From assembly GCF_023973145.1 (NCBI RefSeq), contig NZ_CP099546.1, positions 124,001 to 188,000 of the forward strand: a DNA stretch of 64,000 nt, written 5' to 3'. The DNA is from Natronosalvus vescus (lineage in GTDB: Archaea > Halobacteriota > Halobacteria > Halobacteriales > Natrialbaceae). Below the pieces are notes generated by a model. It did no database searches, was not told the DNA's origin, and saw only the letters and a program-made list of their open reading frames with translations. A program made the position numbers and the translations under genes. Positions 32,385-57,519 of this stretch are shown in pieces; within the stretch, counting starts at the first letter, position 1, and each line of letters opens with the position of its first letter.

Positions 32385-32411
32385 GTGAGTCTCCGTAGCC
32401 CAATCAAGTCA

Positions 32412-35400
32412 ATGGCGACAGAAAAACACACCACGCCACCAGCTGTTGAATCGACTTCTTCCTCCGCGGATGTAGATGCAGATGAGGATGCGCTTTCAGA
32501 ATCGGCGTCACATACCGAATCGGATACGATCGAAGCCTCGAGTACACGAGAAACGAAGCCCAGGGGCGAACCAGGGGATACGGTTGACCCACCCTCTGCG
32601 TCTGCGTCCGAACTCGAGGAACCCGAGACACGGACGTATCTCGAGATCCGACCATCGACGAAGGGACTCAATCTGTTTGCAGTCACGCAGGCAATGGAGT
32701 CACTTTACAGTCGTCTGGAAGCGGCGACGACGAGTGGGCTCTGGAATACGCTTCGAGGGAAGGCCAACGCGCCACTCGTTGAGTGGCTTCTCGTCGCCGA
32801 TGGAAAATCGGATACGAGTATTCGCTATCTGGTTGGAACCACAGATGAAGCGTTTCTCGAGGAACTCGAGACGATTTGTCGAACCTGTATACCGAACTCG
32901 TATGAACTCACCAAGGTGCAGTGGCATCCACAGCATCTCGTAGACTCACTGGATACAGTCCCGGATCGCTCGAGTCCGAATTCACAATCAATACACCCAG
33001 ATCCAGATTCAGATCCAGATCCAGATTCAGTGTCAGACTCGAGTTCTCACTCACGCTTACACTCGTCTTCGACCTCGATCTCGAACTCAGATTCCCCTCC
33101 GCACGTAAATCCACAACCAGACTCAGCCAGCGAACCACCGTACGTTGCAGGGGTAGAATACCGTGGGAAAGCACACTTAGCCCGTGATTGGCTCACCTCG
33201 TTTCGATCGTTCGAAGCGGTGCTTCCCCCGACAACAACCCACCCTGAACAACACACCCATGAGTCACATCGCGTTCCACTGGCGACGCTCATAGAGACGA
33301 TGTGTGAGGTAGACGTCCCCCTCATCTACCAGGTGGTGTGTCGCCCAGCAGGATCCCTCCAGGCAGCGGCCGATTCCTATCAGATCGAACTCGAGGGCGG
33401 GATCGTCACGACAGGGGACAAGATCGCCGATTTCATGTTTTCAAGCACGGAGCCCAGAGATCCCGATTCGATCGAACCCACACCGGCCTATAGAGATCGC
33501 CTCGAGTCACTCGCGCATCGAGATCACCGACATCCCTTTCAGGTATCGATCCGAGCGGTTGCACTCTCGAGGAAGAATCCACAGCGAGCAAACGAGGCAG
33601 CACACCATCTTTCAGGTGCGTTCGATCACCTGAGTGGCCCATTTCACGAGATTCGTGGTCACGTCGTAACCGATGACGACCTCCACAACCAATCTCTCCC
33701 GCCAGGGAGTCACCTCTTTGAGAAACTCAGAGATCGGGTGTGTGATGAACTGACCTACGACGCGCTGAGGAATCGACCGCCATGGAGAGCACACGAGAGT
33801 GCTGGGCTGGTAATGTCCGTCGAGGAACTCCCTGCAGTCTGCCTACTCGACGGCGTCGGATTGACCGCACATGGCCAACGGGCACTTGAGGCACGCCACT
33901 CAGAGCGAACGGGGCTCCCACTTCCATCGCCAGAGGCACTGGAGCGATATTCGGGAGCTGGACAAGCACTGTGTCTCCCACTGACTGATGATCGACAACC
34001 TCACTCTCAGCCCTTCGTTTTGCGACCCGCTCTCCAGGATCGCCATCTGTTCGTTATTGGGGACACTGGCTCGGGGAAGTCGGTGCTCACCACCACCGCA
34101 CTCCTTTCGAATATAGAGGCTACAGCAGGCCCGGAGATCCTGTTCGATTACAAAGGTGGAGGAACGGCCACCGAATTGCTCCAGGCTCACTACGCGGCTC
34201 GTGGCGACCTCAGTGACGTTCTGTACTTCGACCTGACCAAGACGCTGCCTGCACTCTCGATCTTCACGATCAGGCCACTGCTCGAGGCAGGGCTCTCACG
34301 CGAGGAAGCTCGTTCACGCATCGCTGGCCACTACGAAGAGATCCTTTCGGGGTTGATGGGGGAAGAACAGTACTATGGCGCAACGGAGTCGACAAAGGCG
34401 ATTCGAAATCACCTCCGAGCACTGTTCGATCCGATTCACGGTTCGGAGACGGTTTCGCATAAAGAACTCTACGATGCACTGCAACAGACGCTCAGTGACC
34501 GGACACCACCATCAACCTCCGATGAGCGCCTCACTGCGTATTTTGCAGGCTTACTCGAGCGAGACCGGGACGTCTTCAATATGATTCTCGGTGGGGCCGT
34601 GGCTCGAGTCGAAACCATCGCGACGGATGATCGCCTCGCACCACTGTTCGATCACGTCTACGTTCCAGAAGCAGATGGTGAATCCACAGCCAAGTCGGAT
34701 ACTCCAAACCTCGAGTATACAGCCAAGTCGGATGCTCCAAACCTCGAGTACAGAGACGGCAAACCCGGGCATACAGACGAATCTGACACTCGAGACCGCG
34801 GGTACATAGCCGAAACCAAATCTCGAGACCACATCCATGCTCGCCCCCTCTCTGAATCACAGGGGACTCGAGGGGGTCACACTCTCGAGGATCTCGAGGA
34901 TCTCGAGGATCTCGATACTCTCGCTGCAATCGATGAGGATCGCGAGCCGTATTTCGATTTCACCGATATTATCAACGAGGACGTTGTCGTCGTCTTCGAT
35001 TTCGGTGGAATGGAAGAGCGAGTTAAACGGGCGCTCACGCTCGTTTTGCTCTCGAATCTCTGGAGTGCGCTTAAAGCGCGCTCTGAAGACGATAATCAAA
35101 ATCGGAAGCCACCACGGGTCAACCTGTATCTCGAGGAAGCCAGAGATGTGGCGACGACACAGTTAGTCGATACGCTGTTGTCACAGGGGCGTTCGTTCGG
35201 CTTATCGATCATGCTGGGGGTGCAATTCCCCGGCCAGCTCCGCTCGGCCGATCCATCGAATCAAACGTATGAAGAGGCGCTCAACGAGATCGGGACGTTC
35301 GTCGTCGGGAACGTGAGCATTGAAGAGGATCTCCCAAAGGCCCTGGCAACTGACGACATCCAACCAGCGAAGGTGGCACGACGGCTTGCGGCAATGCGTC

Positions 35401-36617
35401 ACGGTGAGTGGCTCATCCGCCCAGCCGCTGCATTCGGAGCCCCTGCACCCCGGCCATTTCTCGGGCGTTCTCTCACACCACCAGCCGGCCATCCAGTGAG
35501 TGAACAGCCACTAAAAGGTGAGGAGTACCAGTCGTTTGAAGCTGCGTTCGACTTACTCACAATCGAGACATGGAACAACGCAGGCCTGGGGTACGAATCA
35601 GACCCGGTTCTCGCCGACCCCATCGATGGGTCAGCCAGCGATGAGACCCAATCCGAAGAGCTTCGCGTTGACTCATTGTTACCACATACGAAGCGGATGC
35701 CCGATTGTGTCAGGTACAACGAGGCCATCGATGCACTCTGTTGTCGGATCTGCCAGAACCGATATGACCCAACCATCGAGGGCATGAAACGCGCAATTGC
35801 CTGTTGTCACGCCCTCGAGGACGTCGACCCTGCTGACATCCCCGCCTGTGAGATCAACCTCAAACTCACGCCCGAAGAACGAGAGGAATCCCCGTGGACA
35901 GACCGACAACTTCTCTTCATGCAGACAGTCTACAACGCCCAGCAACTCCGGTATGATCCACTCGAGTACGATTTACTCCACGACTCGATGATTCGCCTCC
36001 AGGAGTACGTCGGAATCGACACGGAGGAGATTACCCCACTCCTCGAAGCAGACGTCCTTCGTCACGATGCCGATCACCCACACCGCCTGTATTCCGTCTC
36101 ACCCGAGGGACGGACACTCATAGGCGAAAGCTACCGACAGGGCGTCGATTATGGCCACGGCGAAGGCGATCTCGAGGAATCTTCCCAACACGTCTTCGGC
36201 ATCGAAGTCACCCGACAGTACCTCGAGGCTACCTACGTCGACGACCCTGACTCGAGCGTCACCGAGATCATCCCCTACTACGATATCGATGGGAACCACC
36301 GCCTCGACCTCGCTGGGGTCGATGCAGATGGCGAGATCATCATCACAGCAGAGGTCGAACGGATCAATAACGACGTTCACCGTGCCGTTCCCGATGATTT
36401 CGATAAAATGGCTTCCGTCGAACCCGAAGAAGCCATCTGGGTCGTTATGAAACAGGCCGATGGGCACAAGGTTCTCTCTGCGCTCAACAACCCACCCGAA
36501 GGCCCACCTCGAGTCACCAAGACCTATGCCGAAACGACCCCACCCCAGCAGTTCCGGATCGACACACCCGGTTTGACCGCTATCTACCCGGCTGAGTGGC
36601 TCAAAGATCAATACTAG
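32412..36617 (+). CDS. Large TraD/HerA-like ATPase with nuclease-like C-terminus
   Basis: The ATG at 32412 (MATEKHTTPPAVESTSSSAD) gives 1,401 residues; a GTG at 32385 would add nine. Order: acidic low-complexity N-terminus; a folded region to about 530 with a Ser/Asp-rich insert near 190-235; and an ATPase with Walker A GDTGSGKSVL (K556), a KGGG element (ILFDYKGGGTATELL) and Walker B VNLYLEEARD (E908), followed by GVQFPG. This is the VirD4/TraD-HerA pump pattern. Residues 1290-1330 (HRLDLAGVDADGEIIITAEV, D1299, E1314, E1316) look like a PD-(D/E)XK site. Between Walker A and B lies a repeat-rich insert at 750-840. In a mobile region with T4SS-like genes at the left edge, a DNA-transfer motor is the best guess. 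Confidence 0.88.
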   Translation: MATEKHTTPPAVESTSSSADVDADEDALSESASHTESDTIEASSTRETKPRGEPGDTVDPPSASASELEEPETRTYLEIRPSTKGLNLFAVTQAMESLYSRLEAATTSGLWNTLRGKANAPLVEWLLVADGKSDTSIRYLVGTTDEAFLEELETICRTCIPNSYELTKVQWHPQHLVDSLDTVPDRSSPNSQSIHPDPDSDPDPDSVSDSSSHSRLHSSSTSISNSDSPPHVNPQPDSASEPPYVAGVEYRGKAHLARDWLTSFRSFEAVLPPTTTHPEQHTHESHRVPLATLIETMCEVDVPLIYQVVCRPAGSLQAAADSYQIELEGGIVTTGDKIADFMFSSTEPRDPDSIEPTPAYRDRLESLAHRDHRHPFQVSIRAVALSRKNPQRANEAAHHLSGAFDHLSGPFHEIRGHVVTDDDLHNQSLPPGSHLFEKLRDRVCDELTYDALRNRPPWRAHESAGLVMSVEELPAVCLLDGVGLTAHGQRALEARHSERTGLPLPSPEALERYSGAGQALCLPLTDDRQPHSQPFVLRPALQDRHLFVIGDTGSGKSVLTTTALLSNIEATAGPEILFDYKGGGTATELLQAHYAARGDLSDVLYFDLTKTLPALSIFTIRPLLEAGLSREEARSRIAGHYEEILSGLMGEEQYYGATESTKAIRNHLRALFDPIHGSETVSHKELYDALQQTLSDRTPPSTSDERLTAYFAGLLERDRDVFNMILGGAVARVETIATDDRLAPLFDHVYVPEADGESTAKSDTPNLEYTAKSDAPNLEYRDGKPGHTDESDTRDRGYIAETKSRDHIHARPLSESQGTRGGHTLEDLEDLEDLDTLAAIDEDREPYFDFTDIINEDVVVVFDFGGMEERVKRALTLVLLSNLWSALKARSEDDNQNRKPPRVNLYLEEARDVATTQLVDTLLSQGRSFGLSIMLGVQFPGQLRSADPSNQTYEEALNEIGTFVVGNVSIEEDLPKALATDDIQPAKVARRLAAMRHGEWLIRPAAAFGAPAPRPFLGRSLTPPAGHPVSEQPLKGEEYQSFEAAFDLLTIETWNNAGLGYESDPVLADPIDGSASDETQSEELRVDSLLPHTKRMPDCVRYNEAIDALCCRICQNRYDPTIEGMKRAIACCHALEDVDPADIPACEINLKLTPEEREESPWTDRQLLFMQTVYNAQQLRYDPLEYDLLHDSMIRLQEYVGIDTEEITPLLEADVLRHDADHPHRLYSVSPEGRTLIGESYRQGVDYGHGEGDLEESSQHVFGIEVTRQYLEATYVDDPDSSVTEIIPYYDIDGNHRLDLAGVDADGEIIITAEVERINNDVHRAVPDDFDKMASVEPEEAIWVVMKQADGHKVLSALNNPPEGPPRVTKTYAETTPPQQFRIDTPGLTAIYPAEWLKDQY
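34884..34910 (+). repeat. Nine-base tandem repeat within the ATPase gene
   Basis: Three copies of ctcgaggat encode LEDLEDLED between the two ATPase motifs. Just upstream, near 34690-34750, a 33-base unit encoding AKSDTPNLEYT and AKSDAPNLEYR is duplicated in frame. Both lie in the low-complexity insert, which is likely to be length-variable. Confidence 0.75.
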
Positions 36618-37225: not shown

Positions 37226-38453
37226 CCCGCAACGACATTGTGCCCCGCGACCTCATGCATGGACGCGGCCCGGCTTCTTACCGTCCACGCTTTCGACGCG
37301 CTCCTCCCTTCCCTCCTCGCTTTGCTCGGTGAGGAAGTGGGCTCCGCGCTTCCCGCCAAAGCTAAACCTGGACTCTCTGCTCACCGCACCCCCTCTCTCG
37401 CCGAGTATGAACTTCTCACCTGTTCGATCACCACCAATCCCACTCGAGTCCAACATCACCCTCAAATCTCGATACGTTATGCACCCCTCCTCAAACATGC
37501 TCGAGTAGACAAGCCAGCCACATTGACCGTTCAAACCGACCGTATCGACCGTCTACGCGGCCAGGGCGCCCGTTTAGGGACACACTCGAACACCCAAACT
37601 ACCCCGATCTCGGGCGGTGAATCCTCAATTCTACGGATCCAAAACCGATAGACTGCAACCGATTATGAAAAACGTTCTATTAAATTGATAATTCGCTCAT
37701 ATCATATATTCGTCTGTTCTATTCGCCCCGTAGAAGCCTCATAACCTCCAATCCCAACTGAGATTCTCTCCTGAAACCCGTTTTCATCACCTCCTATAAA
37801 TGAGATCGAACGCCACCCCAAAACGCAAGACGAGAACCGATTATGAACTCCTCAGAAAGGGATTTTGCCACCCTCGGTGAGACGAACTCGAGTCACCCAA
37901 CAAACTCGAACACCCACTACGCACGGACGAAACCCACGAACAATACATCCCTCGAGTTAGCTCTCTCCACTCCTGATCCGCACCTAGTTCTACCGTACCA
38001 CGACTTCACAGGCTTATTTGCGGATTCCGTACGAGTTCATGGGTGTGAGAAGACCCCAAACCAGCCTTAACAGCGTACAAGAGCGTCCCCGAGTACACCG
38101 AACGCAGACTGATTCTCTCTGAGAACGTGGAAATTTCAGCGGGGCGAGTGTCCCGGTTTTGGTGAGGACACTGTCGTTGCAGGTGTCATCGAAGAGGTCG
38201 TACTTGCTCATGCGTCGAGGAGGAGTGGCCCCAGCATCGGTGAAAACCCGTTCGAGTATTGACTTCACAGTGAGCCCATTACCCGGTCACCACACGGTCG
38301 CTCACCTTTGTCTGGTGCTTGCTCCCTCGAGATTTGATTTGGATGGCATATCAGAATCACATCATATCAGTAATGAATAATGGTGCATATCACTCCACGC
38401 TAGTGAAAACCACCCACGCAAGCAAGGACGCTGCATCCTCTAATGGCCAAAAG

Positions 38454-38465
38454 TATTATTATAGA
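38454..38465 (+). promoter_or_regulatory. TATA-like element of the giant protease gene
   Basis: The segment tattattataga lies about 24-35 nt before the ATG at 38489, the spacing of a haloarchaeal TATA box for a transcript with little or no leader. Confidence 0.45.
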
Positions 38466-38488
38466 TATCTTGAAAGTCTTACGAGTTA

Positions 38489-41400
38489 ATGAATTCCGGC
38501 AGGGGGAAACGGAAGCAGTCTAGGTGCGGACGAACGACACGGTCGAACGGGGGATCGCATTCACGGGGGTGGATGCGTGTGCTCGAGAGTTCGGCTCACG
38601 CGATCCTTGTGATGGTGATGGCGCTGTTGATGGTGACCAGCATCATGGTTCCAGCAGTGGCTGCGGGATCGTCACCGGCGGCCGACGGCGCCAGTGATCC
38701 GCTTGAATCGGCGGGTACACCGCTCGATACCGCCCTCAACACTGAACGGGAACGGAGCCACGCTGACACCGACCACGATCAGTCTAACGACGCCGACACC
38801 GAGGATGTCTCGGCGGTGTCCGAGGGTGACACTGCGAGCGGAACGGATCACGAGATTACGCTCATCACAGGCCAGACGATTCACGTCTCTGAACAGGCCG
38901 ATGGTGGCCTCACTGTCCATACCTCGAGTAACGACGTCCTCCACCAGGTTGACACCCCTGATGGAACGTACGTCTACCCCGAGAGCGTCGATTTGAGTGT
39001 CTACGACCGGGAGCTGTTCAACGTTGATCGGCTCATCGACGAGGGGATGACTGACGCCGACGCCGAGACGATTCCAGTGATTATTCGTGCATCGGAACAT
39101 TCCGATGAAGTTCGAATGAGCGATGTCGGTGCCTTCGATGCCGTCGAGGGGTATGCGGCGACGCGGTCGCTCACCCTCGTCGACGCCACGGCCGGCGAGA
39201 TCCAGAAGGATCGATCGGCACGCACACTTCGCACGCTCGAGCGCGAGTTCGAACTCGAGAGCGTCTCTCTCGACCGGACGGTCGACGTGGCAACTGACAC
39301 CTCCGTCGACGCCATCGCGGGTGAAACCGCTCGGGAAACACACGACGTGAACGGCACCGGCGTGACGGTCGCAGTCCTCGACACCGGCGTCGACACCGAC
39401 CATCCGGATCTCGCGAACGCGGTCGTCGATCAGGCCGACTTCACCGGCGACGGAACCGGCGACGTCAACGGGCATGGCACCCACGTCGCGGGCACGATCG
39501 CCGGCGACGGCACCGCCAGCAACGGCACGTTCGTCGGCGTCGCCCCTGGGGCGAGCATCGTGGACGTGAAAGTACTCGGTGATGCCGGCTCCGGCTCAAC
39601 GTCGGGCATCATCGAGGGGATCGAGTACGCGATCGACGAGGACGTCGACGTCATCTCGATGAGTCTGGGCGGGCCGGGTGCGCCGGATGACCCGCTCGTT
39701 GAGGCCGTTCATGGGGCGGTTGATGAGGACATTACCGTCGTCGTCGCCGCCGGAAACACCGGCCCCGATCAGTCCACGATTGACGTTCCCGGGAAGGCCG
39801 AGCACGTGATCACGGTCGGTGCCACCGACCACCGGGAGGACGATGTCGCGGGGTTCTCCTCGCGCGGCCCGACTGCGACCGAGCTGGCGCTCAAACCCGA
39901 TATCGCCGCCCCAGGTGTCGAGATCGGGGCCGCCCGCGCCGACGGCGCCTACGATCCGATTGCGGACTATCCTGAGTACGCCCGCATCAGCGGTACCAGT
40001 ATGGCGACTCCCCACGTCAGCGGGGTCGCCGCGATGATGCTTGAGCAGAATCCCGACAAAACCCCGGATCGCGTCAAGGACGTCCTCCTCTCGAACGCAG
40101 ACGTGGTGTCGGGCACTGATGACGCCTACGCGGTCGGCGCCGGTCAGGTGAACGCTACCCGAGCGGTCTCGCCCGATCTGGTCGTCTCCAACGCCACCGA
40201 GAGTTTCGGAACCGTTAGCGGTGACGACCAGGTGACGCGCACGCTTGCCGTCGAAAATCCGACGGACGAGACAGTCGAGTTGGCCGTCGACGACCATCTC
40301 CTTGAGACTACCGGTGGAACCACCCACGCCGAGCTTGTAACGGTCAACCGGACGAGCCTGACGCTCGACCCCGGTGACGTGGGCTATGTTGAGTACACCA
40401 TCGACGCTACGGCTGGGGGGATCTTCTCAGGACACGTCGAGTTTACGAACAACGCGACGGCCGAGACCCACCGCGCGGTGTTCGGATTCGCCGTCGGGGA
40501 CGAAGTGACCGTCGAAAAATCGCCTTACAGCGCTGATGGCTCCGTAGAAGGTGATGAGGTGTGGGTCTTCTCCCTTGAGAGGGGCAGTTCCCAGACGCTC
40601 ACGGTCGAGAACGGGCAGGTCTCGTTCATCAGAACCGGTGAGGAGTATCAGCTCTGGTCGAGTGGCTACGACGAACCCACTAACACGCCGATCAAGACCG
40701 CGACCGCACTCAATGCGAGTGACGCCACCACGGCGATCCTTGACGAGCAAGCAACGGTCGCCTACACCATCGACGACTCCGAACTCAACGCTTCGCTCCG
40801 TTCGATGCAGGTGCAGCCGAAGATGCAACACCACACCGATCACGGAGATCGGCTGAGTTCGCGGAGTTTGTATGACAATATTGACGCCCAGACGGTTCGT
40901 TTCCCGAAGGGGGCAGAGTACAACGCCAGTGTCCACCACGTCACGGTTTCGACTGACCAACACGATGGCGGAAATAACGTCGATGTTGATGACGTCTACT
41001 GGCTCGTCTACGGGACGGTCGGTGTTGACGGCGACCAGAAGTTCGTCGTCAATGAATCCGAACTCGGCACGTTCGAGCGAACGTATCTCCGCAGTGCAGA
41101 AAACGAACGTATCGCTCCTTTCTTCAATAGCCAGACGACCGTCTGGGAGGACTACGGTTCTGGAAGTACGTCGTTCGATGTGCGCGACCGAACCGAACAG
41201 CGGATCCATGTCACCCAGGAGGCGATCTATCTCTCAAACGGTGTAGTGCACGACGGTTCGCTCAGCTCGCAGTCGCTGACCCCACCCGAACCGGGTGGAG
41301 TTCACCAGATCGATTTCAATCGACACCCCTACACGGGAACGTTCGACGGCTTCATCATTGAGGACTGGCGTATCGACCTCTACGGTGGCTACCTATCCGA

Positions 41401-44400
41401 TCAGAACACCCCTCGACACGTCTATAGAAACTGGGATCACGGCTCATCGTACGTGGTCACCGTCGACGGAACTACGATCGACGAGGGAACAGAACACAAT
41501 CACCACTTCGACTCGATTAACGACATCGAACTCGAATCCGGTCAGGAAGTCAGCGTCGAACTTGTGGGGGAGAACCCAACGGGGGTACTCTCTACCCAGG
41601 TCACAACGGATGCACACGTGACCTACGAGGAGTATGGCGACAACACCCCGCCGCTGCTCCAGCACGTCGACGTCAACGGCCTCGACGAGTACAACAGCGT
41701 TGAGTCCAGCGAGGTCACGATCACCCTCGTTGTCGAGAGCAGCGACGGCCTCGCCGAGGACGACCTCGCGTTGCTGACAGCCACTGAAGACGTCGACGAT
41801 CCCGCGTTCACCGATGCCACCGTCAATCCGGCTGGGACATGGGATACATGGGATCTCGAGATCGTCGATACCGATGGTCAGAGTTACCTCCTCGAAGCGA
41901 CGGTGAACGCGACCGACGAAGAAGGCACGCTTCATCTCGCGACACGCCTCGTCGACGTGGAAGGCGATCGGTACGAGACAACCGTTCGCGACGCGTTCCA
42001 CGTGGGCGACCCGCCATCGTTCGATGACGGTGACAGTGGTGAGGACGAACCGGATGAGGTGCGCGATCAGACGATCACCGGACAGTTCATCCAGGCAGAC
42101 GGCGACCCGGGCGTCAATCACACGGTGATAGTCAACCGGCGTGATGATGGCTCCTTCCTCTATGCGGACGCCGAGACGAACGCAACGGGCCACTTCGAGA
42201 TTGACGTGGCCAGCGGGTACGTCTACGATCTCACTTACGTCCAGTGGTCGGCGTTCTCCGATGGGGAGGTTGAGATGCCACGAGATGGGAACGTCGACGT
42301 AAAATCGATCGCCTCGGTCGATCTGACGGACGAGGAGGCCGAGAGTACAGCGACGGAGCCAACCGCAACCGACACCGTCTCTGGCCTCACGGCCACGAGC
42401 GGATCCGACGGTTCCGCGACCATCATCGACACGAACGAGACGGAGCTCGGCACGATCGAGCTCCCCATTGGCCACGTCTTGACTGTCGACGCCAAAGACG
42501 AGAGCGGAAACCTCGTCGAGAACGCAACGAAGTTTGTCTCCGATGGGGCTCCAGAGGAGTTCATGGGCATCGGAATTAACTTGGACACACTCGGTGAGGA
42601 ACCCGGCCTGGAAATGAACGGCTCGACGACGGTCACCGTTTCGCCGCCTGAAAATGACGACCGATTCGTCGACCAAGAGTACGAACTCGAGTTCAATGTA
42701 ACCGAGGATACGCACGCCGAGGTGGTTCTCGAGGAACGTGAGACGGTAACGCTCACCGGCCAGGTGTTGCTCGCCGACGGCACCCCGGCGGCGAACGATC
42801 AGATCCATATACCAGATCCGAACGGCTTCCAGCACGTCGCCACCGATGCTGACGGCTACTTCAGTACGAACGTCACCAGTAACTCGACCCTCTCACTCGG
42901 CTACTATCAGGCCGCCGAGAACGACTCGTTCGCCCCCGTTCGTGACGGCTCGCCGGACGTCTACTCCCTCGATCGTATCGAGGTCGGGGACGAAGACACC
43001 GATGTCGGGACGTACCACCTGCCTGATGCGTCGGTACTCGACGTGGAAGTCGTCGATAAGGACGGCCAGCCCGTTGAGAACGCCCAGGTGAGGGTCGTCG
43101 CGTACAACGAGAATCGATCCAACGGCTTCGGAACCGGCTTCGAGCCGTCGACCAACGCCGACGGGTGGCTTGATTTCGAGAGCGCGGACGACACCGGGAT
43201 CGAAGTCACCGGTGAAGTGACCGTTCAGGTCAAACCACCGGAGAACGACGACCGGTTCGACACCTACACGTACGAACAGGAGGTGACCGTCGAGGAGGAC
43301 ACGTCGCTACAGTTCGAACTTGCAGAAGACGCGCCCGAGCAACCCGATACCATCACCGGGCAACTCACCCTGGCTGACGGGACGCCAGCGGCGAATAATA
43401 CGTTGCTCGTGAACAAACGGAACGACCGTTGGTTCTATGACCAGGTCGAAACCAACGAGACGGGACACTTCGAAGTCCCCATCGAGAGCGGCGCCGTCTA
43501 TGATCTCGTCTACGTTCAGTTCCTGGATGACGACGGGTCAGATACTGACGTGCTTATTCCCCGAGACGGCAACGTTGACCTCTATAACGTTGCTTCGATC
43601 GACTTGCGCGATGGTGGAGAAGAGACATCCAGCGGGCCGCTGACGCTCGATCCCGGTGTCGAGGGGATGACAACGACAACGGCGAGCGCCTCGGGCGTCT
43701 CATCTGCGATCATCAACACGGACGATCCAGCTCTCGGGGAGATCGAGCTGCCGAAAGGTCACCCTGTTACCGTTGAAGTCATCGACGAGGCCGGAAACCC
43801 CGTCGAGAACGCAACGGCGACCTACACCGATGGGGCACCCGAGGAGTTCATGGCCACTGGATTGGTCGGCTTCACCGAGAACGACGGGCTTGCGTACTGG
43901 AACGATGCCCCACATCCGGGACTCGAGATGAACGGATCCGCGACAGTGATGGTCGAACCTCCGGAGGGCGATAGCCGCTTCGTCAATACCACGTACGAGT
44001 TCACCCCGTCCGTCACTGAGGGGACTAATATCACCATCGAACTCGAAGAGCGGGATAGACCCACCATAGCGATCCAGGAACCCGCTGACGGGTCGACTGT
44101 CAACGAGAGCGCGGTGGCGATCCTCTATGAGCTGGCACACACCAACGTTGACGACGCCGCAGCCGTCGAGTACCGCATCCTCGACGACGGTGAAGCGGTC
44201 GTCGACTGGATTGACGCGCCGTTCGAGGCGACCGGCGAGTCGGTGACACTCGACACCATCACGCCCGAACTCGAGGACGGTTCGTACGAACTCGAGATGC
44301 GCGTACTCGATTCGGCAGGGGACGTGATCGAAGTCTCGAGCGCGGTCGACAACAGTGCGTTAGAGGTTTACACGACAGCACCGGTGATTACGCTCATCTC

Positions 44401-47400
44401 GCCCGACGAAGGTGAGCACCCGTACGAGTCGGTACTCGATTTCGATGTCGACGTCGCTCAGGAACGCACCGTTACCGTCGAATATCGCACCGACACTGAC
44501 GTAACCGACTTCACCGAACTCGAATCGCCGTACGAACTCGACGTCCTCGGCGAAGCGTGGACTGAAGGCCCGACAACGGTAACGATCCGTGCAACCGACG
44601 ATCTCGGCAACGTTGCCGAGGAGACGTTCACCTTCGAATTCGTCTCACTGCCGTCGATCGACGCCGTGTCACCAGCAGACGGGGCACTCATTAACGAGAC
44701 CGCCCCCACAATCGTCGTCGAATACAGCGACAATGACGTTCCAGGCGACACCGGTGTTGATCCCGACAGCGTCACGCTCGACGTTGACGGGGAACCGGTC
44801 GATCTCACCGAAGCGACGACCCTGACGGACACACACCTCGAGGTCACGCTGTCCGATCTCGATCTCGATGAGCCACAGAATAGTACCCACACGTTCACCG
44901 TCACGGCTGCAGACCAGGCCGGATACACGGCCACCGAGACGTGGAACGTCACAGTCGATGCGGAGGCGCCAGAGGTCGACCTCGACGCGCAGCCGGCGAA
45001 CGAGGCGTATCCCAACGTGAGCATGGCGAACCCGGCGGTCATTACCGTCAGCTCGGATGACGTCAATCACGAGTCGACCACCGTCGAAGTGCGCAATGCC
45101 GCCGATGAGGTCGTCTTCCCGAAAGATGTATCAGACAAAACGGGCGCTGGTTCGTCCCACGAGTTCGAGTGGCTACCGATTGATACCTCCCAAGAACGTC
45201 TCCCAAGCGGCGAGTACACCGTCGTCCTGACGAGTACTGACGCTGCAGGCAACATCGGGACGGCGTCGACGACGATCGCGGTCGATACCGACGATCCCGT
45301 TATTGATCTCATCGCCGTCGACGGCGGCGAGCTATCAGACGACGAAACGACGCGATACGCCAACGGGACGCTCAACGTGACCGTCGACGCGACCGACGGA
45401 ACCGCGGACTCGGGCGATGTCGAAGACGTCGAGGTGACTCTCGAGTCCACGTTCACGAACTACCGCCAGATCGTTGGGGCCGAACCAGTGACTGGAGAAC
45501 CCAACCGCTGGCAGGTGGCACTCGATGCAGCCACACTGCCTGATGAGGGCGAGTACGAACTCCGCGTGAACGCGATCGACGCCGGTTTGAACGAAGCCGA
45601 ACTCGTCGCCGACGAAACGCTCGTCTACGACGAGACGCCGCCGCGGCTCTCGACCGTGTTGCACCTTGATGAAGAGAGCGACGACGGGACGGTAGTCGTA
45701 CGTGCAAACGAGCCACTCGCTTCAGCGCCAACGGTGGTCGTCGAACACCCGGACGGAACCGAAGAAACGGTGGCCGTCACCGAAGACGGCGAGAACCGGT
45801 GGATCGGTACCATCACCGCCACTGACGACGGCACCTACCGCGTCGAAGCGACGGGAGCGGATTACGCCGGAAATGTGGGAGTGGATACGGCAACTACGAC
45901 CGTCGAGTACGTGGCCACTGAAAACCGCACGGTCACCGTGTACAACGAGGACACAGGGACGGTCATCCAGTTCAACACGACTGATGACGTCACAAACTCG
46001 TTCGTCACGGTTTCTGAGAGCGACGTCCCGCCGGCCGACCTCGAGGAAGATCTCTTCGGTGTGGGCTTCCTCACGACACAACTCGGCACTGAACTCGAAA
46101 CTGAACTCACGAACGCGACGATCTACATCCCGGTTGATGAGAGTCACCTACCTGATGGGGTTGATCCCGAGGCCGTCTCGATCACTCACTACAACGAGTC
46201 GACAGAGACCTGGGAGGAACGCCCGACTGAAATCCACGACCTCGATGATGAGACCCGTTCAGGCACCTACTGGGTCACCACAGTCGAGCACTTCTCGACG
46301 TACGGAACGGTCATCGCCGACGAGCAACCACCATCCCTGCTCGACCTCAGTCACGGACAGGAGGCGACGGTTGCCTGGAACACCGACACGCTTGACGTGA
46401 CGTTCGAGTACGCCGACGCACTTTCCGGTGTCGACGCCTCGGCAATCGAGGTCGATGTCGATGACGTGTCTGTGACTGACGACGACGCTACACAGATCAC
46501 CTCGAGTACGACCACGCACACGCTCGAGCCCGAAATCGGCCAGACGACCACGGTCACAGTGACCGTCTTCGACAATGCTGGAAACAGCGACACGTTCGAA
46601 CAGAGCGTAACGGTCGCCGAACCACCCGCACCGGTCGTCACCAGCATCGATCCGGTCGATGGAACGGAGTTCGATCCAGGCATCGAGATGGTTGACATCG
46701 CGTTCGACGTTGCCACTGATGGGATGGCCATCGACGCATCCGAGTCGACGCTTCTCGTCAACGGCGATTCAGTGGCCATGACGATTGACGACGGAACGGT
46801 CAGCGCCGCGATCCCCGTCGCAGACGACGAAGACTACGACGTTGAACTCACGCTCGTAGATGAGTGGGGTCACACCGTGTCCGAACCCCTCGCGTTCTCG
46901 GTTGCTGCCGAGGAGACGGGTTCCAGCCCACCACCACTCCCACCGATCGGTGGTGGCGATGATCCCGTAGACGATCCGTTCGTCTTCCAGTACGAACCGT
47001 CCGCCCACGGTGTGGTCGTCATCGGTTCCGACGCGACGGCCGGCGAGACCGACCTGACGACGTTCCAGGACGTGACATCTGACAGTGTCAGTCTCATCTC
47101 GTTCGAAGGTGAGTCGGCCGTCACGCAGTCGACGTTCGATGTCGCCGTTGAGTTCGATACCGCCGACACCTCGTCGATCGATGGAACGGCCGTCGAAACG
47201 ATTGCGATTGACGACGAGGACAACGCACTCGAATGGATGACGCTCACGTTCGCGGTCGATGAGACCGCACTCCCGGCTGGAATGACCGCCGATGACGGGG
47301 TACTCTACTACCAACCCCACGGCGAAGAGCAGTGGCACACCGCTACATTCGACCAGAGTGACAGCACGTTCACAGTCACTCTCAAGGAGTCGGGAACGCT

Positions 47401-47680
47401 CGCCGTTGTCGTGCCCGCAGAAGACGACGAGGAAACGAAGCCGGACGAAGATTCCGACGAGTCGACGGAACCGGATGACGACACAGACGACGGGACGGAT
47501 CCGGATGACGACACAGACGACGGGACGGATCCGGATGACGACACCGATGACGACGAGGTACCATCCGAATCGCCAGACGATGACGATTCAAGTAGCGATG
47601 GACTCCCTGGATTCGGGTTCACTCTTGCAATCAGTGTCCTCCTCTCGTTTGCACTCATCCGTACTCGCTGGCGGAATTGA
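38489..47680 (+). CDS. Giant secreted S8 (subtilisin-like) protease with PGF-CTERM-like tail
   Basis: The 3,063-residue protein begins with a basic extension and a Sec signal (ILVMVMALLMVTSIMVPAVA); an ATG at 38573 is an alternative start. A propeptide-like region runs to about 285. The S8 domain (290-560) has D298 (VAVLDTGVDTDHPDL), H329 (GHGTHVAGTIAG) and S504 (SGTSMATPHVSG). From about 1193 come three carboxypeptidase-regulatory-like repeats (TITGQF, TLTGQV and TITGQL near 1193, 1420, 1620), then Ig-like domains from 1859, two PGF-pre-PGF-like domains (near 2480-2610 and 2830-2975), an Asp-rich stalk and a final LPGFGFTLAISVLLSF helix with RTRWRN. That tail suggests archaeosortase processing and lipid anchoring. 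It probably degrades proteins at the cell surface and is several times longer than typical halolysins. Confidence 0.93.
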   Translation: MNSGRGKRKQSRCGRTTRSNGGSHSRGWMRVLESSAHAILVMVMALLMVTSIMVPAVAAGSSPAADGASDPLESAGTPLDTALNTERERSHADTDHDQSNDADTEDVSAVSEGDTASGTDHEITLITGQTIHVSEQADGGLTVHTSSNDVLHQVDTPDGTYVYPESVDLSVYDRELFNVDRLIDEGMTDADAETIPVIIRASEHSDEVRMSDVGAFDAVEGYAATRSLTLVDATAGEIQKDRSARTLRTLEREFELESVSLDRTVDVATDTSVDAIAGETARETHDVNGTGVTVAVLDTGVDTDHPDLANAVVDQADFTGDGTGDVNGHGTHVAGTIAGDGTASNGTFVGVAPGASIVDVKVLGDAGSGSTSGIIEGIEYAIDEDVDVISMSLGGPGAPDDPLVEAVHGAVDEDITVVVAAGNTGPDQSTIDVPGKAEHVITVGATDHREDDVAGFSSRGPTATELALKPDIAAPGVEIGAARADGAYDPIADYPEYARISGTSMATPHVSGVAAMMLEQNPDKTPDRVKDVLLSNADVVSGTDDAYAVGAGQVNATRAVSPDLVVSNATESFGTVSGDDQVTRTLAVENPTDETVELAVDDHLLETTGGTTHAELVTVNRTSLTLDPGDVGYVEYTIDATAGGIFSGHVEFTNNATAETHRAVFGFAVGDEVTVEKSPYSADGSVEGDEVWVFSLERGSSQTLTVENGQVSFIRTGEEYQLWSSGYDEPTNTPIKTATALNASDATTAILDEQATVAYTIDDSELNASLRSMQVQPKMQHHTDHGDRLSSRSLYDNIDAQTVRFPKGAEYNASVHHVTVSTDQHDGGNNVDVDDVYWLVYGTVGVDGDQKFVVNESELGTFERTYLRSAENERIAPFFNSQTTVWEDYGSGSTSFDVRDRTEQRIHVTQEAIYLSNGVVHDGSLSSQSLTPPEPGGVHQIDFNRHPYTGTFDGFIIEDWRIDLYGGYLSDQNTPRHVYRNWDHGSSYVVTVDGTTIDEGTEHNHHFDSINDIELESGQEVSVELVGENPTGVLSTQVTTDAHVTYEEYGDNTPPLLQHVDVNGLDEYNSVESSEVTITLVVESSDGLAEDDLALLTATEDVDDPAFTDATVNPAGTWDTWDLEIVDTDGQSYLLEATVNATDEEGTLHLATRLVDVEGDRYETTVRDAFHVGDPPSFDDGDSGEDEPDEVRDQTITGQFIQADGDPGVNHTVIVNRRDDGSFLYADAETNATGHFEIDVASGYVYDLTYVQWSAFSDGEVEMPRDGNVDVKSIASVDLTDEEAESTATEPTATDTVSGLTATSGSDGSATIIDTNETELGTIELPIGHVLTVDAKDESGNLVENATKFVSDGAPEEFMGIGINLDTLGEEPGLEMNGSTTVTVSPPENDDRFVDQEYELEFNVTEDTHAEVVLEERETVTLTGQVLLADGTPAANDQIHIPDPNGFQHVATDADGYFSTNVTSNSTLSLGYYQAAENDSFAPVRDGSPDVYSLDRIEVGDEDTDVGTYHLPDASVLDVEVVDKDGQPVENAQVRVVAYNENRSNGFGTGFEPSTNADGWLDFESADDTGIEVTGEVTVQVKPPENDDRFDTYTYEQEVTVEEDTSLQFELAEDAPEQPDTITGQLTLADGTPAANNTLLVNKRNDRWFYDQVETNETGHFEVPIESGAVYDLVYVQFLDDDGSDTDVLIPRDGNVDLYNVASIDLRDGGEETSSGPLTLDPGVEGMTTTTASASGVSSAIINTDDPALGEIELPKGHPVTVEVIDEAGNPVENATATYTDGAPEEFMATGLVGFTENDGLAYWNDAPHPGLEMNGSATVMVEPPEGDSRFVNTTYEFTPSVTEGTNITIELEERDRPTIAIQEPADGSTVNESAVAILYELAHTNVDDAAAVEYRILDDGEAVVDWIDAPFEATGESVTLDTITPELEDGSYELEMRVLDSAGDVIEVSSAVDNSALEVYTTAPVITLISPDEGEHPYESVLDFDVDVAQERTVTVEYRTDTDVTDFTELESPYELDVLGEAWTEGPTTVTIRATDDLGNVAEETFTFEFVSLPSIDAVSPADGALINETAPTIVVEYSDNDVPGDTGVDPDSVTLDVDGEPVDLTEATTLTDTHLEVTLSDLDLDEPQNSTHTFTVTAADQAGYTATETWNVTVDAEAPEVDLDAQPANEAYPNVSMANPAVITVSSDDVNHESTTVEVRNAADEVVFPKDVSDKTGAGSSHEFEWLPIDTSQERLPSGEYTVVLTSTDAAGNIGTASTTIAVDTDDPVIDLIAVDGGELSDDETTRYANGTLNVTVDATDGTADSGDVEDVEVTLESTFTNYRQIVGAEPVTGEPNRWQVALDAATLPDEGEYELRVNAIDAGLNEAELVADETLVYDETPPRLSTVLHLDEESDDGTVVVRANEPLASAPTVVVEHPDGTEETVAVTEDGENRWIGTITATDDGTYRVEATGADYAGNVGVDTATTTVEYVATENRTVTVYNEDTGTVIQFNTTDDVTNSFVTVSESDVPPADLEEDLFGVGFLTTQLGTELETELTNATIYIPVDESHLPDGVDPEAVSITHYNESTETWEERPTEIHDLDDETRSGTYWVTTVEHFSTYGTVIADEQPPSLLDLSHGQEATVAWNTDTLDVTFEYADALSGVDASAIEVDVDDVSVTDDDATQITSSTTTHTLEPEIGQTTTVTVTVFDNAGNSDTFEQSVTVAEPPAPVVTSIDPVDGTEFDPGIEMVDIAFDVATDGMAIDASESTLLVNGDSVAMTIDDGTVSAAIPVADDEDYDVELTLVDEWGHTVSEPLAFSVAAEETGSSPPPLPPIGGGDDPVDDPFVFQYEPSAHGVVVIGSDATAGETDLTTFQDVTSDSVSLISFEGESAVTQSTFDVAVEFDTADTSSIDGTAVETIAIDDEDNALEWMTLTFAVDETALPAGMTADDGVLYYQPHGEEQWHTATFDQSDSTFTVTLKESGTLAVVVPAEDDEETKPDEDSDESTEPDDDTDDGTDPDDDTDDGTDPDDDTDDDEVPSESPDDDDSSSDGLPGFGFTLAISVLLSFALIRTRWRN
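47471..47553 (+). repeat. 30-bp tandem repeat encoding the acidic stalk
   Basis: The unit beginning ccggatgacgacacagacga is present twice exactly (47471-47500, 47501-47530) and partly a third time. It encodes PDDDTDDGTD units. Such repeats expand or contract easily, so stalk length may vary between strains. Confidence 0.85.
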
Positions 47681-48060: not shown

Positions 48061-50025
48061 ATGAGTCCCACGAGCCGTGCCACATCACCTACGCCAGCGG
48101 CCTCCACAGAGCGCGGGCAATCGGAGCTCGTGGGCGTAGTGTTCCTGATGGGGTTCGTGGTCATTAGCGCTGTGGGCATTGCGCTCGTGGGGGGCAGCGC
48201 CCTCGACCACCTTCAGGGTCAGAGCCAGGACGAGACGGCCTCTCAGTCGCTCCAGCACATCAAAGGCGAGCTGGCCTCCCTCAAGCCAGGTGACGTGCAG
48301 GCGGTCACAATGGGTGAATCGGTTGCTGCGGAGACGCGCACCGATCCAACGGCCGGCAGGATGACGATCACCGTCGACGGGCGCGAGACCTCGTTCGTAC
48401 TCGGTTCGATCATCTACGAGCGAGAGGGTACCCAGATCGCCTACCAGGGTGGGGGCGTCTGGCGACACACCGACGGACGGACACAGATGGTGAGCAGCCC
48501 GGATATCGCAATCGAGACTGCCGAGGGCGACATCTCGAGCATTCATTTCGACGTCAAGCGCCTCCAGGGGACGGGGCAGGCGGCGACCGACCTGCAGATG
48601 CGCTCGGCCGGACACAACCTGACCGCCGAGGAGATGTTCCCACATCGGTTGCCCCGTGGGCCGATGACCCTTGAGATCGAGTCCGTTTATTACGAAGGGT
48701 GGGCGGACTACTTCGCCGCCCAGGACGGGATTACCTACGCGGATGAGGGCGAGGGCCATATCGGCACCGTCCGCGTGGATGAGGCGGCCCAGACGATGAT
48801 CCTCGAGGTGGATATCGACGAGGCGATCCCGGAGATTCACTCGGCCAGAATCGGCAGCGATGACGCCGGCTCCCAGCCGATCCACTTCGCCAACGGAACG
48901 CTGGTGACCAGCTACGACTCGGAGCTGGCACCGTCGGATGGATCTACGCCGACGGACTTTACCGACAGCGCCACCATCGCCGCGTGGACGGGGACGGCCA
49001 ACTCCATCAGCATGGAGGTGGAGCTCAGAGGCGATCTGTACAACACGTTAGGGCAGCACTCCTCGGGAGAAGGAGATACGCTCGACTTCAATGATGCCGC
49101 GGTCGTGACGGGTGAGGTACACAGCGATTATCGGATCGATCTCGGTGGGGCGAAGGTGGGAACCGTGTACGTGAACCATACGGGTTCACAGGCGAATCAC
49201 GCGAGTCTCACCATGGATGGCGGTACGATCAACGGCGACCTTCATGCCCATGGCGAGCCGTCATCGGACAACACCGTCGTCGAGATTCAGGGGTCGAGCC
49301 AGGTCAATGGCGACGTCCGCGTCGCTGGCGGCGACATCAGCGTGGACGACGAAGCGAATATCACCGGCGACGTCTGGGTGAGCGGTGAGTTCGACGGCAA
49401 TAACGACAGCGTCATCGGCGAGATCCACGAACACGTCGCGGATCCTGAAGCCGAGAAGCCAACCGATAAGATTGCCCCCGAAGAGGCCGATCGAAGCTAT
49501 GAGTTCACGTATACTGGAGATCTCGACGGGTGTGACGAGCACACGAACAACAACAATGAACTCAGCCTTGACGACGGCGATATGTGTACGCTCCGCTCCG
49601 GCGTGTACCACCTCGAAGAACTCCACGTGGCTGACGGCGCCACGTTGGAACTGGACACCTCGGACGGGCCGATCGTGTTGCATGTTGAAGGGCAGGTGAC
49701 GATTGAGCCGGACGCGGAGATTCACCGACCGACTGATCCGTATCGGTCACCGTCGATCCAACTCGTCGTCGAGGGGAACCACGACGTTTCGCTCGGAAGT
49801 GAGTTCGCCGGCTTCATCGACGCCCGTGAGAGTTCTGTCGCCTTCGAAGAGGACGTGCCCCTGTATGGGGCCGTCATCGCTGAGCAGATTACCCTTGAAC
49901 AGGGAGCAGCCATCTATTTCGACGAACGGCTTCTCGTCGAGGAGGGCGAAGAACTCGACTTTGTGCGGGCGGCCCAGTTCGTCTATTTCGATATCTCGGT
50001 CACGGAGATCGAAATTTCCGAGTGA
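48061..50025 (+). CDS. Type IV pilin-like surface protein with polymer-type beta-helix
   Basis: The 654-residue protein opens with a class III-like signal: RGQSELVGVVFLMGFVVISA, where cleavage would leave a hydrophobic pilin helix (residues 22-47). This matches haloarchaeal pilin-like proteins of the DUF7289 type. The middle region is beta-rich. From about residue 340 regular short repeats appear (AAVVTGEVHSDYRIDL, GTINGDLHAHGEP, SSQVNGDVRVAGGD, ANITGDVWVSGEFD), spaced like the right-handed beta-helix of bactofilin or polymer-forming proteins. The last part (SIQLVVEGNHDVSLGSEFAG; YGAVIAEQITLEQGAAIYFD) continues that style. It probably sits on the cell surface as part of a pilus or secreted fibre. 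Confidence 0.85.
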   Translation: MSPTSRATSPTPAASTERGQSELVGVVFLMGFVVISAVGIALVGGSALDHLQGQSQDETASQSLQHIKGELASLKPGDVQAVTMGESVAAETRTDPTAGRMTITVDGRETSFVLGSIIYEREGTQIAYQGGGVWRHTDGRTQMVSSPDIAIETAEGDISSIHFDVKRLQGTGQAATDLQMRSAGHNLTAEEMFPHRLPRGPMTLEIESVYYEGWADYFAAQDGITYADEGEGHIGTVRVDEAAQTMILEVDIDEAIPEIHSARIGSDDAGSQPIHFANGTLVTSYDSELAPSDGSTPTDFTDSATIAAWTGTANSISMEVELRGDLYNTLGQHSSGEGDTLDFNDAAVVTGEVHSDYRIDLGGAKVGTVYVNHTGSQANHASLTMDGGTINGDLHAHGEPSSDNTVVEIQGSSQVNGDVRVAGGDISVDDEANITGDVWVSGEFDGNNDSVIGEIHEHVADPEAEKPTDKIAPEEADRSYEFTYTGDLDGCDEHTNNNNELSLDDGDMCTLRSGVYHLEELHVADGATLELDTSDGPIVLHVEGQVTIEPDAEIHRPTDPYRSPSIQLVVEGNHDVSLGSEFAGFIDARESSVAFEEDVPLYGAVIAEQITLEQGAAIYFDERLLVEEGEELDFVRAAQFVYFDISVTEIEISE

Positions 50026-55026: not shown

Positions 55027-57519
55027 ATGAAAGGTGCAGGACGTGTCTGGGTGGTTCTTCTCGTAGCTCTCGCGCTCGTGATCTCTCCGATCGCGGGCAC
55101 CGCGGGTGCAGCGATTGGAGCTACACCGATGGCGAACTCGACGAGTATCGATGACGATGAACGAATAACGATCACTGATCAGGTATCTGTCTGGGATCGG
55201 TCGGCGGTGACACTCCGCGCTGATTCGAGCGCGGAGGGTGCCGTCAGTGTTGACTTCTTGGCTGATCTGAAGGCCCCTGACGATGAATATTATTCTTCAT
55301 TCCGCCAAAACCTAACCGTCTTCAAACAGGGAAAGACTGTTCCGGTTCACTTCGATACGAACGTTCAGTCATCGAGTTCCTTTGATGAGAACGACGAGGT
55401 ACAGATTCTCACCGCGAAACTTCACGATGACGCGGATGTGGGCGCGCTGCCGATGTCCAACGGTGACCTGTCTGATGCGTTCACACAGGAGAACCTGGAT
55501 AATCTCAACGAGAACGTCTCGTTCTCACTCGAGCCGAAGAAGAAGGCACTCGATGAGGATGGCGAACTCACGTACCAGTTCGAGGACGAAGGCGCGGGCA
55601 TGTACGCCCTGTTTGTGGCGACTGGGGATGGCCTTTCAGTCGACGATAACGATCTCGAGATCATCGACGACACGACCATCGTCGGCGTCGAACACCTCGC
55701 TGTCCAAGAAAACCCTTCGGAGGTCACCGTTGACGATGATGGAGTGCTCCCCGGGGACACCGTCACGTTCGATGCCGAGGCTACTGACCTCGAGGGAGAG
55801 ATCGATCACACGGTGATTCTGTACGATGAAGAGACGTATCTCGACTTCGTCATCAACATCACCGATCAGATAGATGGTGACTTCTCGGCCAGCGATATCG
55901 TGATCGAACACGACATCGAGTCGATAAACGGCGTCCAGTCGCTCGAGGACGACGTCTCGTTCCTCGGGATGGATATTGGTGCTCAATCGGTCTCGGGCGT
56001 CACCCACGTCGGCGACATTATCTCCTTCATCACGAGCGAGGCCGGTGATGCTGTCGACGCCGACATCGATGGGCCACAGACGAAAGCCACTGGCGACGTC
56101 GTCCTCAACGCCTCCTCGACGGCGATTGCCGACGCAGGAACGACCGCCGAGATCGACGTCGAGACGTTTGGGAACTGGTCTGAAGGTGACTATCGCTGGG
56201 TACACGTCGCTACCGGTGACTCGAGCGATGCGTTCCAGACCAATACGGGAACGATCTCGCTCGAAGAAGAGAAGGACACGACACCTCCACCAGGGCCACC
56301 AGCGCCACCGGGGCCGCCGGATGACCCACCGGTTGGCCCACCGGAAGTGCCGGTTGATCCACTGCCGTTCGCCAGCTTCGACGAACTGCAGGTGGCGGCC
56401 GTTGACGAGAAGACCGGCCTTCCAACGGCGCGGTTCAGTCCGGAGTCACCAGTCGGCTGGGTCGCTTTGCAGACCGACACCGAGATCGAGGTGCTCGTCC
56501 AGGGCTTCGATCTCTCGAACCCACCGGAAGAGCTCACGTCGGTACCGGATGACACTATCTCGCTCCAGTCGATTACTGTCGCCGAAGGGTACGAAAATAC
56601 CCCCGGAACGATCGAGTTCCGCGTCGACAAGACGACGGTCGATGAGACCAAAGTCGATCAAGGGGCGCTGACCGTCCTCCGGTATGATGCGGCTGCCGGC
56701 GAGTGGGAAGCGCTCGAGACTGAGGTTGTTGGGACGACCGGTGATCGTATCATCCTCGAAGCGGAGACGCCACGGTTCTCGTACTTCGCGGTCGCGGAGA
56801 CCGAGACGACACCGGAGACGACGCCCCCAACCGCAAACATCGAAATCTTGCCGGATTCGACGATCGAAGAGGGTGACACGGCAACGCTGTCGGCTGCAGG
56901 ATCCGATCCCGGAAGCGGCGAGATCGTTGGCTATGAGTGGAAACTCGATGATGAGAAGATCGGTAACGGAGAAGAACTCGAGATCACGCCCGATGCTGGT
57001 GAATACGAAGTTGAGTTGACGGTCGTTACCGACGAGGACGAAAGCGATACCACAACCGCTACGCTCACCGTCCAAGTGCGAATCGTCGACCCGAGTGAGA
57101 AACACCGTGTCGAGATCACCGTGACGGACAACGATGGAGACCCGATTGAAGGGGCGACGGTCACGATCGGCGATGAGGAAGTGACGACGGGTGCTGACGG
57201 CATTGCGACGTTCGACCTCGAGAACAACGTTTACACGGCAACGATCACTGCAGACGGGTATGAAACGGTCACGCAGGAGGTCGATGTCGACGGCCAGGAA
57301 ACGGAATTCGCGATCCAGATGGCTTCTGCAGTCGAGGATGATGGCTGGCCGGTCTGGCTCCTCATCTTGGTGGTGCTGGGTCTGATGGGGCTCGCGATCG
57401 GTGGGCTCTATATCAAGTACCTGCAGGAGGAAGAGGATCTCGACCTTCAGGAGGAGTTCGAAAAGCTCCGCGAGAGTCTCAACGAACGCCGCAAAGACGT
57501 GAGCAACCGCTTCAACTAA
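55027..57519 (+). CDS. Surface protein with PKD-like domains and cytoplasmic coiled-coil tail
   Basis: The 830-residue protein has a Sec signal (VWVVLLVALALVISPIAGTA), then a beta-rich region to about 415. A proline linker (PPPGPPAPPGPPDDPPVGPP) is followed by a PGF-pre-PGF-like domain near 443-595 (FASFDELQVAAVDEKTGLPT; RFSYFAVAETE), a PKD-like domain near 599-690 (PTANIEILPDSTIEEGDTAT) and a carboxypeptidase-regulatory-like domain near 694-770 (GDPIEGATVTIGDEEVTTGA). A membrane helix (WPVWLLILVVLGLMGLAIGG) precedes about 35 charged residues (LQEEFEKLRESLNERRKDVS) that would form a cytoplasmic coiled coil. The inward-facing tail is unlike the short basic tails of the other surface proteins here and could transmit a signal or bind the cytoskeleton (inference). 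Confidence 0.9.
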   Translation: MKGAGRVWVVLLVALALVISPIAGTAGAAIGATPMANSTSIDDDERITITDQVSVWDRSAVTLRADSSAEGAVSVDFLADLKAPDDEYYSSFRQNLTVFKQGKTVPVHFDTNVQSSSSFDENDEVQILTAKLHDDADVGALPMSNGDLSDAFTQENLDNLNENVSFSLEPKKKALDEDGELTYQFEDEGAGMYALFVATGDGLSVDDNDLEIIDDTTIVGVEHLAVQENPSEVTVDDDGVLPGDTVTFDAEATDLEGEIDHTVILYDEETYLDFVINITDQIDGDFSASDIVIEHDIESINGVQSLEDDVSFLGMDIGAQSVSGVTHVGDIISFITSEAGDAVDADIDGPQTKATGDVVLNASSTAIADAGTTAEIDVETFGNWSEGDYRWVHVATGDSSDAFQTNTGTISLEEEKDTTPPPGPPAPPGPPDDPPVGPPEVPVDPLPFASFDELQVAAVDEKTGLPTARFSPESPVGWVALQTDTEIEVLVQGFDLSNPPEELTSVPDDTISLQSITVAEGYENTPGTIEFRVDKTTVDETKVDQGALTVLRYDAAAGEWEALETEVVGTTGDRIILEAETPRFSYFAVAETETTPETTPPTANIEILPDSTIEEGDTATLSAAGSDPGSGEIVGYEWKLDDEKIGNGEELEITPDAGEYEVELTVVTDEDESDTTTATLTVQVRIVDPSEKHRVEITVTDNDGDPIEGATVTIGDEEVTTGADGIATFDLENNVYTATITADGYETVTQEVDVDGQETEFAIQMASAVEDDGWPVWLLILVVLGLMGLAIGGLYIKYLQEEEDLDLQEEFEKLRESLNERRKDVSNRFN

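Follow-up and report, generated by a model that had tools for sequence, protein, structure and literature searches.

A 3,063-residue haloarchaeal S8 protease with a modular stalk and a PGF-CTERM-like tail, the largest found of a scattered archaeal family

Lactocepin and the other sortase-anchored cell-envelope proteinases are composed of a signal, a prodomain, an S8 domain, a long modular extension and a C-terminal sorting tail. Among haloarchaeal secreted subtilases, to which the protease described here would also belong, the halolysins (e.g. SptA of Natrinema sp. J7) are known examples, and the mature SptA-type enzyme carries a C-terminal extension of only ~120 residues (PMC3158780), unlike our protein. 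SAM-P45, a membrane-anchored protease of Streptomyces, has been placed in a pyrolysin subgroup of its own (PMC9549277; MEROPS S08.069). On the side of anchoring, ArtA substrates of Haloferax combine a PGF motif with a hydrophobic stretch and with positively charged residues (PMC7157517). Within an incomplete coverage of the literature, we found no paper that treats PGF-CTERM tails together with serine peptidases, or together with both subtilisin-like proteins and archaeosortase, and public annotation names the protease family as 'S8 family serine peptidase' only.

The window analysed here, a stretch of 64,000 nucleotides, comes from a 3.84 Mb genome on a single contig, of which it covers bases 124001-188000. 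At 38489-47680 (+) it contains a single intact open reading frame of 3,063 aa with an ATG start and zero internal stops. We read the product as a secreted, surface-anchored S8 endopeptidase on a modular stalk, with a probability of roughly three in four; its proteolytic activity, cleavage, anchoring and substrates are predicted from the sequence. Its layout appears to be that of the cell-envelope proteinases (grouping: PMC9549277), a likeness of architecture by which it would also work in their manner, and its tail is of the PGF type, the LPXTG-type signal of those enzymes being absent on direct reading. The parts, namely S8 peptidase, Ig/prealbumin stalk and PGF-type tail, are known, and their combination at such length is an extreme of the family. 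The protease is thus real and unusual in size, and it is not a new kind of machine.

Integrity of the gene and its catalytic end

The gene and its surroundings are divided as follows.

38450..38467, +, A/T-rich TATA-like stretch ~25-35 bases upstream of the ATG, possible leaderless promoter (from sequence)
38489..38665, +, secretion signal, residues 1-59: basic n-region, hydrophobic core and AVAA-type cleavage region, with the most hydrophobic 15-mers of the protein
38840..39352, +, prodomain-like region, residues 118-288 (ITLITGQT ... YVYPESVD ... LFNVDRL), from which alignment with Streptomyces S8 peptidases runs onwards
39353..40138, +, Peptidase_S8 catalytic domain, residues 289-550 (PF00082, PDB relatives, conserved D/H/N/S)
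40172..42019, +, post-catalytic module, residues 562-1177, conserved in relatives (alignment; hhalign to the Streptomyces S8 post-catalytic region)
42065..42742, +, tandem unit u1, residues 1193-1418, CarboxypepD_reg-like and prealbumin/Ig-like (self-alignment, domain search)
42746..43336, +, tandem unit u2, residues 1420-1616 (self-alignment, domain search)
43346..44059, +, tandem unit u3, residues 1620-1857 (self-alignment, AF2 model)
44060..45262, +, Ig-like domains (Big_13 and relatives), residues 1858-2258 (PF19077 37.1 bits, cut-off 27)
45263..46618, +, cassette of Ig, PGF-pre-PGF-like and Ig domains, residues 2259-2710, common to two other giant proteins of the same genome
46970..47422, +, weakly PGF-pre-PGF-like domain, residues 2828-2978 (hhalign 43.6%, E 2e-4; aligned by position)
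47417..47602, +, Asp/Glu-rich linker, residues 2977-3038, 36/62 residues acidic, with three 30-base DNA repeats (tandem repeat 47464-47552)
47606..47677, +, PGF-CTERM-like tripartite tail, residues 3040-3063: PGF, hydrophobic stretch, RTRWRN

The promoter role of 38450..38467 is possible and is suggested by the usual haloarchaeal spacing.

An assembly error or a fusion of two genes, considered in the sequence-only reading, would also give a very long frame, and apart from the extreme length nothing else speaks in its favour. The genome is a single contig. GC3 along the gene varies between 0.71 and 0.81, and its one lower value, 0.56, belongs to the final 63 residues, with the acidic repeat linker among them; GC this even by codon position is what one coding gene should show. 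Moreover, there are colinear relatives from other families, both ends included. Relative L008 (1,994 aa, from another family of the same order) is colinear with the giant protease from signal to tail in the order signal, prodomain, S8, module, Ig, PGF-pre-PGF-like, Ig and tail, and is without the ~1,000-residue stretch that holds the tandem units and proximal Ig domains. With end-to-end colinearity and even codon composition, a join of two genes was rejected, and its probability is negligible. The composition of the protein is acidic (D+E 21% vs K+R 3.6%).

The hydrophobicity maximum of the whole protein lies at residues 35-59, in the signal-like segment. Were translation to begin at Met29, the signal would be of more usual length, and a similar signal is carried by relatives. 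By its hydropathy, this N-terminal signal would direct export. The prodomain, of ~170-230 residues, would then be removed, probably by self-cleavage as in the family. The S8 domain matches PF00082 at 213.4 bits (E 5.3e-63; curated cut-off 21.8), and has solved PDB relatives at E values down to 2e-65. The triad given by the sequence-only reading is present and intact: D298, H329 (the first H of HGTH) and S504 (GTSMA), together with oxyanion N423, the D/H/N/S set being conserved in 16/16 aligned sequences. From this triad the catalytic domain is expected to be active.

Post-catalytic module and distribution of the family

Kinship of the catalytic end reaches beyond archaea. Prodomain, S8 domain and module together align with Streptomyces S8 peptidases over 999 columns (hhalign 100%, E 2.7e-98), and the module alone aligns with their post-catalytic region at 98.1%. 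The Streptomyces long S8 peptidases matching the N-terminal ~1,060 residues measure 1,096-1,273 aa; they have prodomain, S8 and post-catalytic module in common with the giant protease, and differ from it in being without long stalk and PGF tail. Seen from the bacterial side, the post-catalytic module of these peptidases (L065, L066, L067) has a conserved haloarchaeal counterpart. The SAM-P45 pyrolysin subgroup is likely a relative of the giant protease, and the sequences aligned here are Streptomyces S8 peptidases other than SAM-P45.

For residues 562-1177, no Pfam or NCBIfam model matched over cut-off, and family matches were all below it. The first ~100 residues are choice-of-anchor-D/ASH-like Ig, also below cut-off, and the remainder is without family model. 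Against the PDB, the module profile gave HYDIN/ASH-like Ig matches only, covering the first ~70 positions; an AF2 model from a two-row alignment reached a pLDDT of 36.8. By homology with the Streptomyces region, this ~615-residue module is probably substrate-shaping or stabilising.

The sequence-only reading took known haloarchaeal subtilases to be about 400-600 residues long, a premise that does not hold and that overstated the rarity of the present gene. Among the 150 S8 matches listed from the source genome and 60 relatives, the median length is 592 aa, at least 26 frames exceed 1,000 residues and at least 13 exceed 1,500; S8 frames of >1,000 residues are hence frequent in Halobacteria. The module profile was found in 27 of the 391 genomes of the class and in 17/86 sampled genera, three of those genomes having partial weak matches only. 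Three candidates were scored per genome in this search, so that 27/391 is a lower bound. No fewer than 24 further Halobacteria genomes carry the same core, in open frames of 1,115-2,484 aa, and the protease of the window is the longest member seen.

When all candidates were scored with a single-sequence query, 0/7 congeneric genomes carried the module at E 1e-10; one of them (G003) gave a partial profile match to the first Ig-like part. The protein tree places the giant protease as sister to that of Halorubrum trapanicum, from another family, with support 100/100, and rows of its own family are scattered over several places. This patchy distribution is consistent with transfer and loss. Scans of genome contigs with the whole protein returned no matches in the first case and the Halorubrum trapanicum locus only in the second. 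That relative (strain DSM 12287, NZ_JAGGKE010000022.1, 2,484 aa) is 44.7% identical over residues 39-1431, comprising prodomain, S8, module and first tandem unit. Its stalk, read by eye, carries a NosD/beta-helix-like stretch and PKD-like domains, and is without the full tandem-unit set, Big_13 Ig and PGF-pre-PGF-like cassette of the giant protease. Within Natrialbaceae, plasmid pHTUR02 of Haloterrigena turkmenica encodes an S8 family serine peptidase of 1,405 aa, which has the prodomain-S8-module core in common with the giant protease, a short C-terminal part without PGF tail, and a tyrosine recombinase gene close by. Its genome is assigned to the same family as the source genome, which makes Natrialbaceae the most likely family of the host.

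Stalk, distal cassette and sorting tail

Beyond the S8 domain lie ~2,500 residues in all, of which ~1,900 follow the module as stalk. Repeats had been noted here from the sequence, and three tandem units were confirmed: u1 and u3 are 50% identical and align with a score of 524, where shuffled sequences reach 78 at most, and u1/u2 and u2/u3 are ~30% identical, far above shuffles. Furthermore, u2 shares 43% identity with one of the units of the Halorubrum trapanicum relative. Each unit (~200-240 residues) consists of a CarboxypepD_reg-like half and then a prealbumin/Ig-like half, with scores below cut-off. The earlier term 'regulatory-like' is thus a fair description at sub-threshold level, as CarboxypepD_reg (PF13620) scored 31.9 bits in u2, 23.2 in u3 and 18.7 in u1, all under the gathering score of 32.3. 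The tandem-unit profile had no matches in the PDB. A moderate AF2 model of u3 (pLDDT 62.5) resembles, at low TM-scores, the folds of pilin, CnaB and transthyretin, supporting the predicted fold class only. With its tandem prealbumin/Ig-type units, the ~1,900-residue stalk may hold the enzyme off the membrane, across the S-layer.

The distal cassette (residues 2259-2710) gave three domain scores over cut-off, PF19077 at 48.2, PF13750 at 36.7 and PF08329 at 25.9 bits. Two PGF-pre-PGF-like domains had been proposed by the sequence-only reading. The first, at residues ~2468-2617, aligned at 90.6% (hhalign) to the pre-PGF region of relatives, and profile comparison speaks for it as a candidate domain of this kind; the second, with the 43.6% listed above, resembles it weakly. 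The PGF-pre-PGF profile TIGR04213 matched neither 2468-2617 nor 2818-2984. Among the relatives compared, L054 matches TIGR04213 at 47.9 bits.

Elsewhere in the genome, the cassette finds its best matches within two proteins (E 8e-49 and 2e-39, 38-39% identity), which measure 3,435 and 3,462 aa. These giants, encoded at L084:582-10889 (~2968381-2978688 of the source genome) and L085:724-11112 (~3227223-3237611), have right-handed beta-helix/NosD heads and PGF tails, together with an extended series of ~95-residue repeats. The presence of the cassette in two beta-helix giants indicates that the distal part is generic and placed under different heads. A NosD/beta-helix-like stretch was also observed in the Halorubrum trapanicum relative, at residues ~1420-1900 between two tandem units; with this stretch inside its stalk, stalk modules seem to have been exchanged between the protease and beta-helix giants. 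In our reading, the protease head would have been combined with a distal cassette which, in the same genome, also sits beneath quite different heads. It is very unlikely that the protease and the two giants form one surface system, in which the common cassette would dock all three at the same places on the surface, with the protease trimming or shedding the other two.

The same stalk may be read as that of a protein that is mainly an adhesin, binding surfaces or cells through Ig/prealbumin units and using the S8 head for accessory or processing activity. The resemblance of stalk units to pilin/CnaB folds, Ca_tandemer adhesin repeat matches in the stalk at sub-cut-off scores, and the recurrence of the cassette under beta-helix heads would all suit such a function. 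However, the conserved part of the family is the protease core, with its four catalytic residues intact throughout the alignment, whereas the stalk is freely rebuilt between relatives. A mainly adhesive role is therefore improbable.

Evidence for anchoring comes from the tail, PGFGFTLAISVLLSFALIRTRWRN, in which PGF is accompanied by a hydrophobic stretch and by three Arg. The tripartite order is complete: PGF at 3040-3042, then GFTLAISVLLSFALI, then RTRWRN. Residues 3043-3057, directly after PGF, form the second most hydrophobic stretch of the protein (15-mer mean hydropathy 2.33). Against TIGR04126 the tail scores 17.8 bits (E 0.002), below the curated cut-off of 24.5, and we therefore name it PGF-CTERM-like; of the tail proposed earlier, the tripartite features all hold and the profile score falls short. 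The genome encodes archaeosortase ArtA (TIGR04125 319.5 bits, cut-off 75), for which the sequence-only reading had suggested looking, and its picture of a secreted S8 protease with a long extracellular stalk and a C-terminal sorting-type tail is supported.

Among relatives, TIGR04126 is over cut-off in L046 (Halorubrum trapanicum, 39.8 bits) and L008 (24.8 bits). The motif is PGFG at the end of L048, L049, L050, L051 and L055 and PGVG at that of L052 and L054, in each case with a hydrophobic stretch and an Arg-rich terminus; most large relatives read to the end finish in this way. L009, L010, L011, L012, L047 and L058 have no evident PGF tail, and anchoring is hence not constant across the protease family. 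Archaeosortase A would cut the PGF-type tail and lipid-anchor the protein, as the motif and the ArtA gene suggest. Under such processing, the mature protein would lose everything past the PGF region, and would no longer contain an intact GFTLAISVLLSFALIR.

Other secreted subtilases have C-terminal prosequences, and the present enzyme may likewise be a digestive protease released into the medium after stalk and tail are cut off in maturation. Relatives of 1,199-1,405 aa are without long stalk or PGF tail, indicating that the core works without anchor, and the Streptomyces counterparts are of similarly small size. Against release stand the recurrence of the PGF tail in distant relatives, at the extreme C-terminus, and the cost of a ~1,900-residue domain array as prosequence. 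We consider release unlikely, and surface anchoring remains the preferred reading. The likely job of the anchored enzyme would be to cleave extracellular proteins, whether as a source of nutrients or in the turnover of the surface.

Neighbouring genes and meaning of the combination

A pilin-like gene (48061-50025, +; 654 aa, DUF7289/DUF7305) adjoins the protease, and the sequence-only reading proposed that the protease matures the surface proteins next door. Adjacency alone favours a maturation protease dedicated to this and other adjacent surface genes. DUF7289/DUF7305 pilin-like relatives occur in 16/16 genomes searched, genomes without the protease among them, and the pilin-like gene lies beside the protease in 0/10 other protease-bearing genomes. 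In three congeneric genomes, the equivalent glmS locus was read and contains other genes and no giant ORF. The proposal thus lost its basis in the neighbourhood, and dedicated maturation is highly improbable.

Several other genes of the window were observed. Upstream of the protease, a lower-GC region contains a gene for a 1,410-aa ATPase (32385-36617, +) weakly similar to TraD/VirD4/HerA (TrwB_AAD_bind 29.7 bits), which may belong to an integrated conjugative element. Near the protease, the gene at 55027-57519 (+; 830 aa, PKD and CarboxypepD_reg over cut-off) encodes a second candidate surface protein, and there is a TnpB-like gene (OrfB_IS605 and Cas12f1-like TNB domain) at 57695-58948 (+).

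The module at residues 562-1177 constitutes a conserved domain that awaits a family model of its own. More broadly, our results suggest that haloarchaea make their own counterpart of the bacterial cell-envelope proteinases, with a tail of the archaeosortase type. Its construction suggests an actinobacterial-type protease core, combined with freely rebuilt stalks and a distal cassette common to other giant surface proteins. The giant protease thereby offers a testable case of large-enzyme display across the archaeal S-layer.
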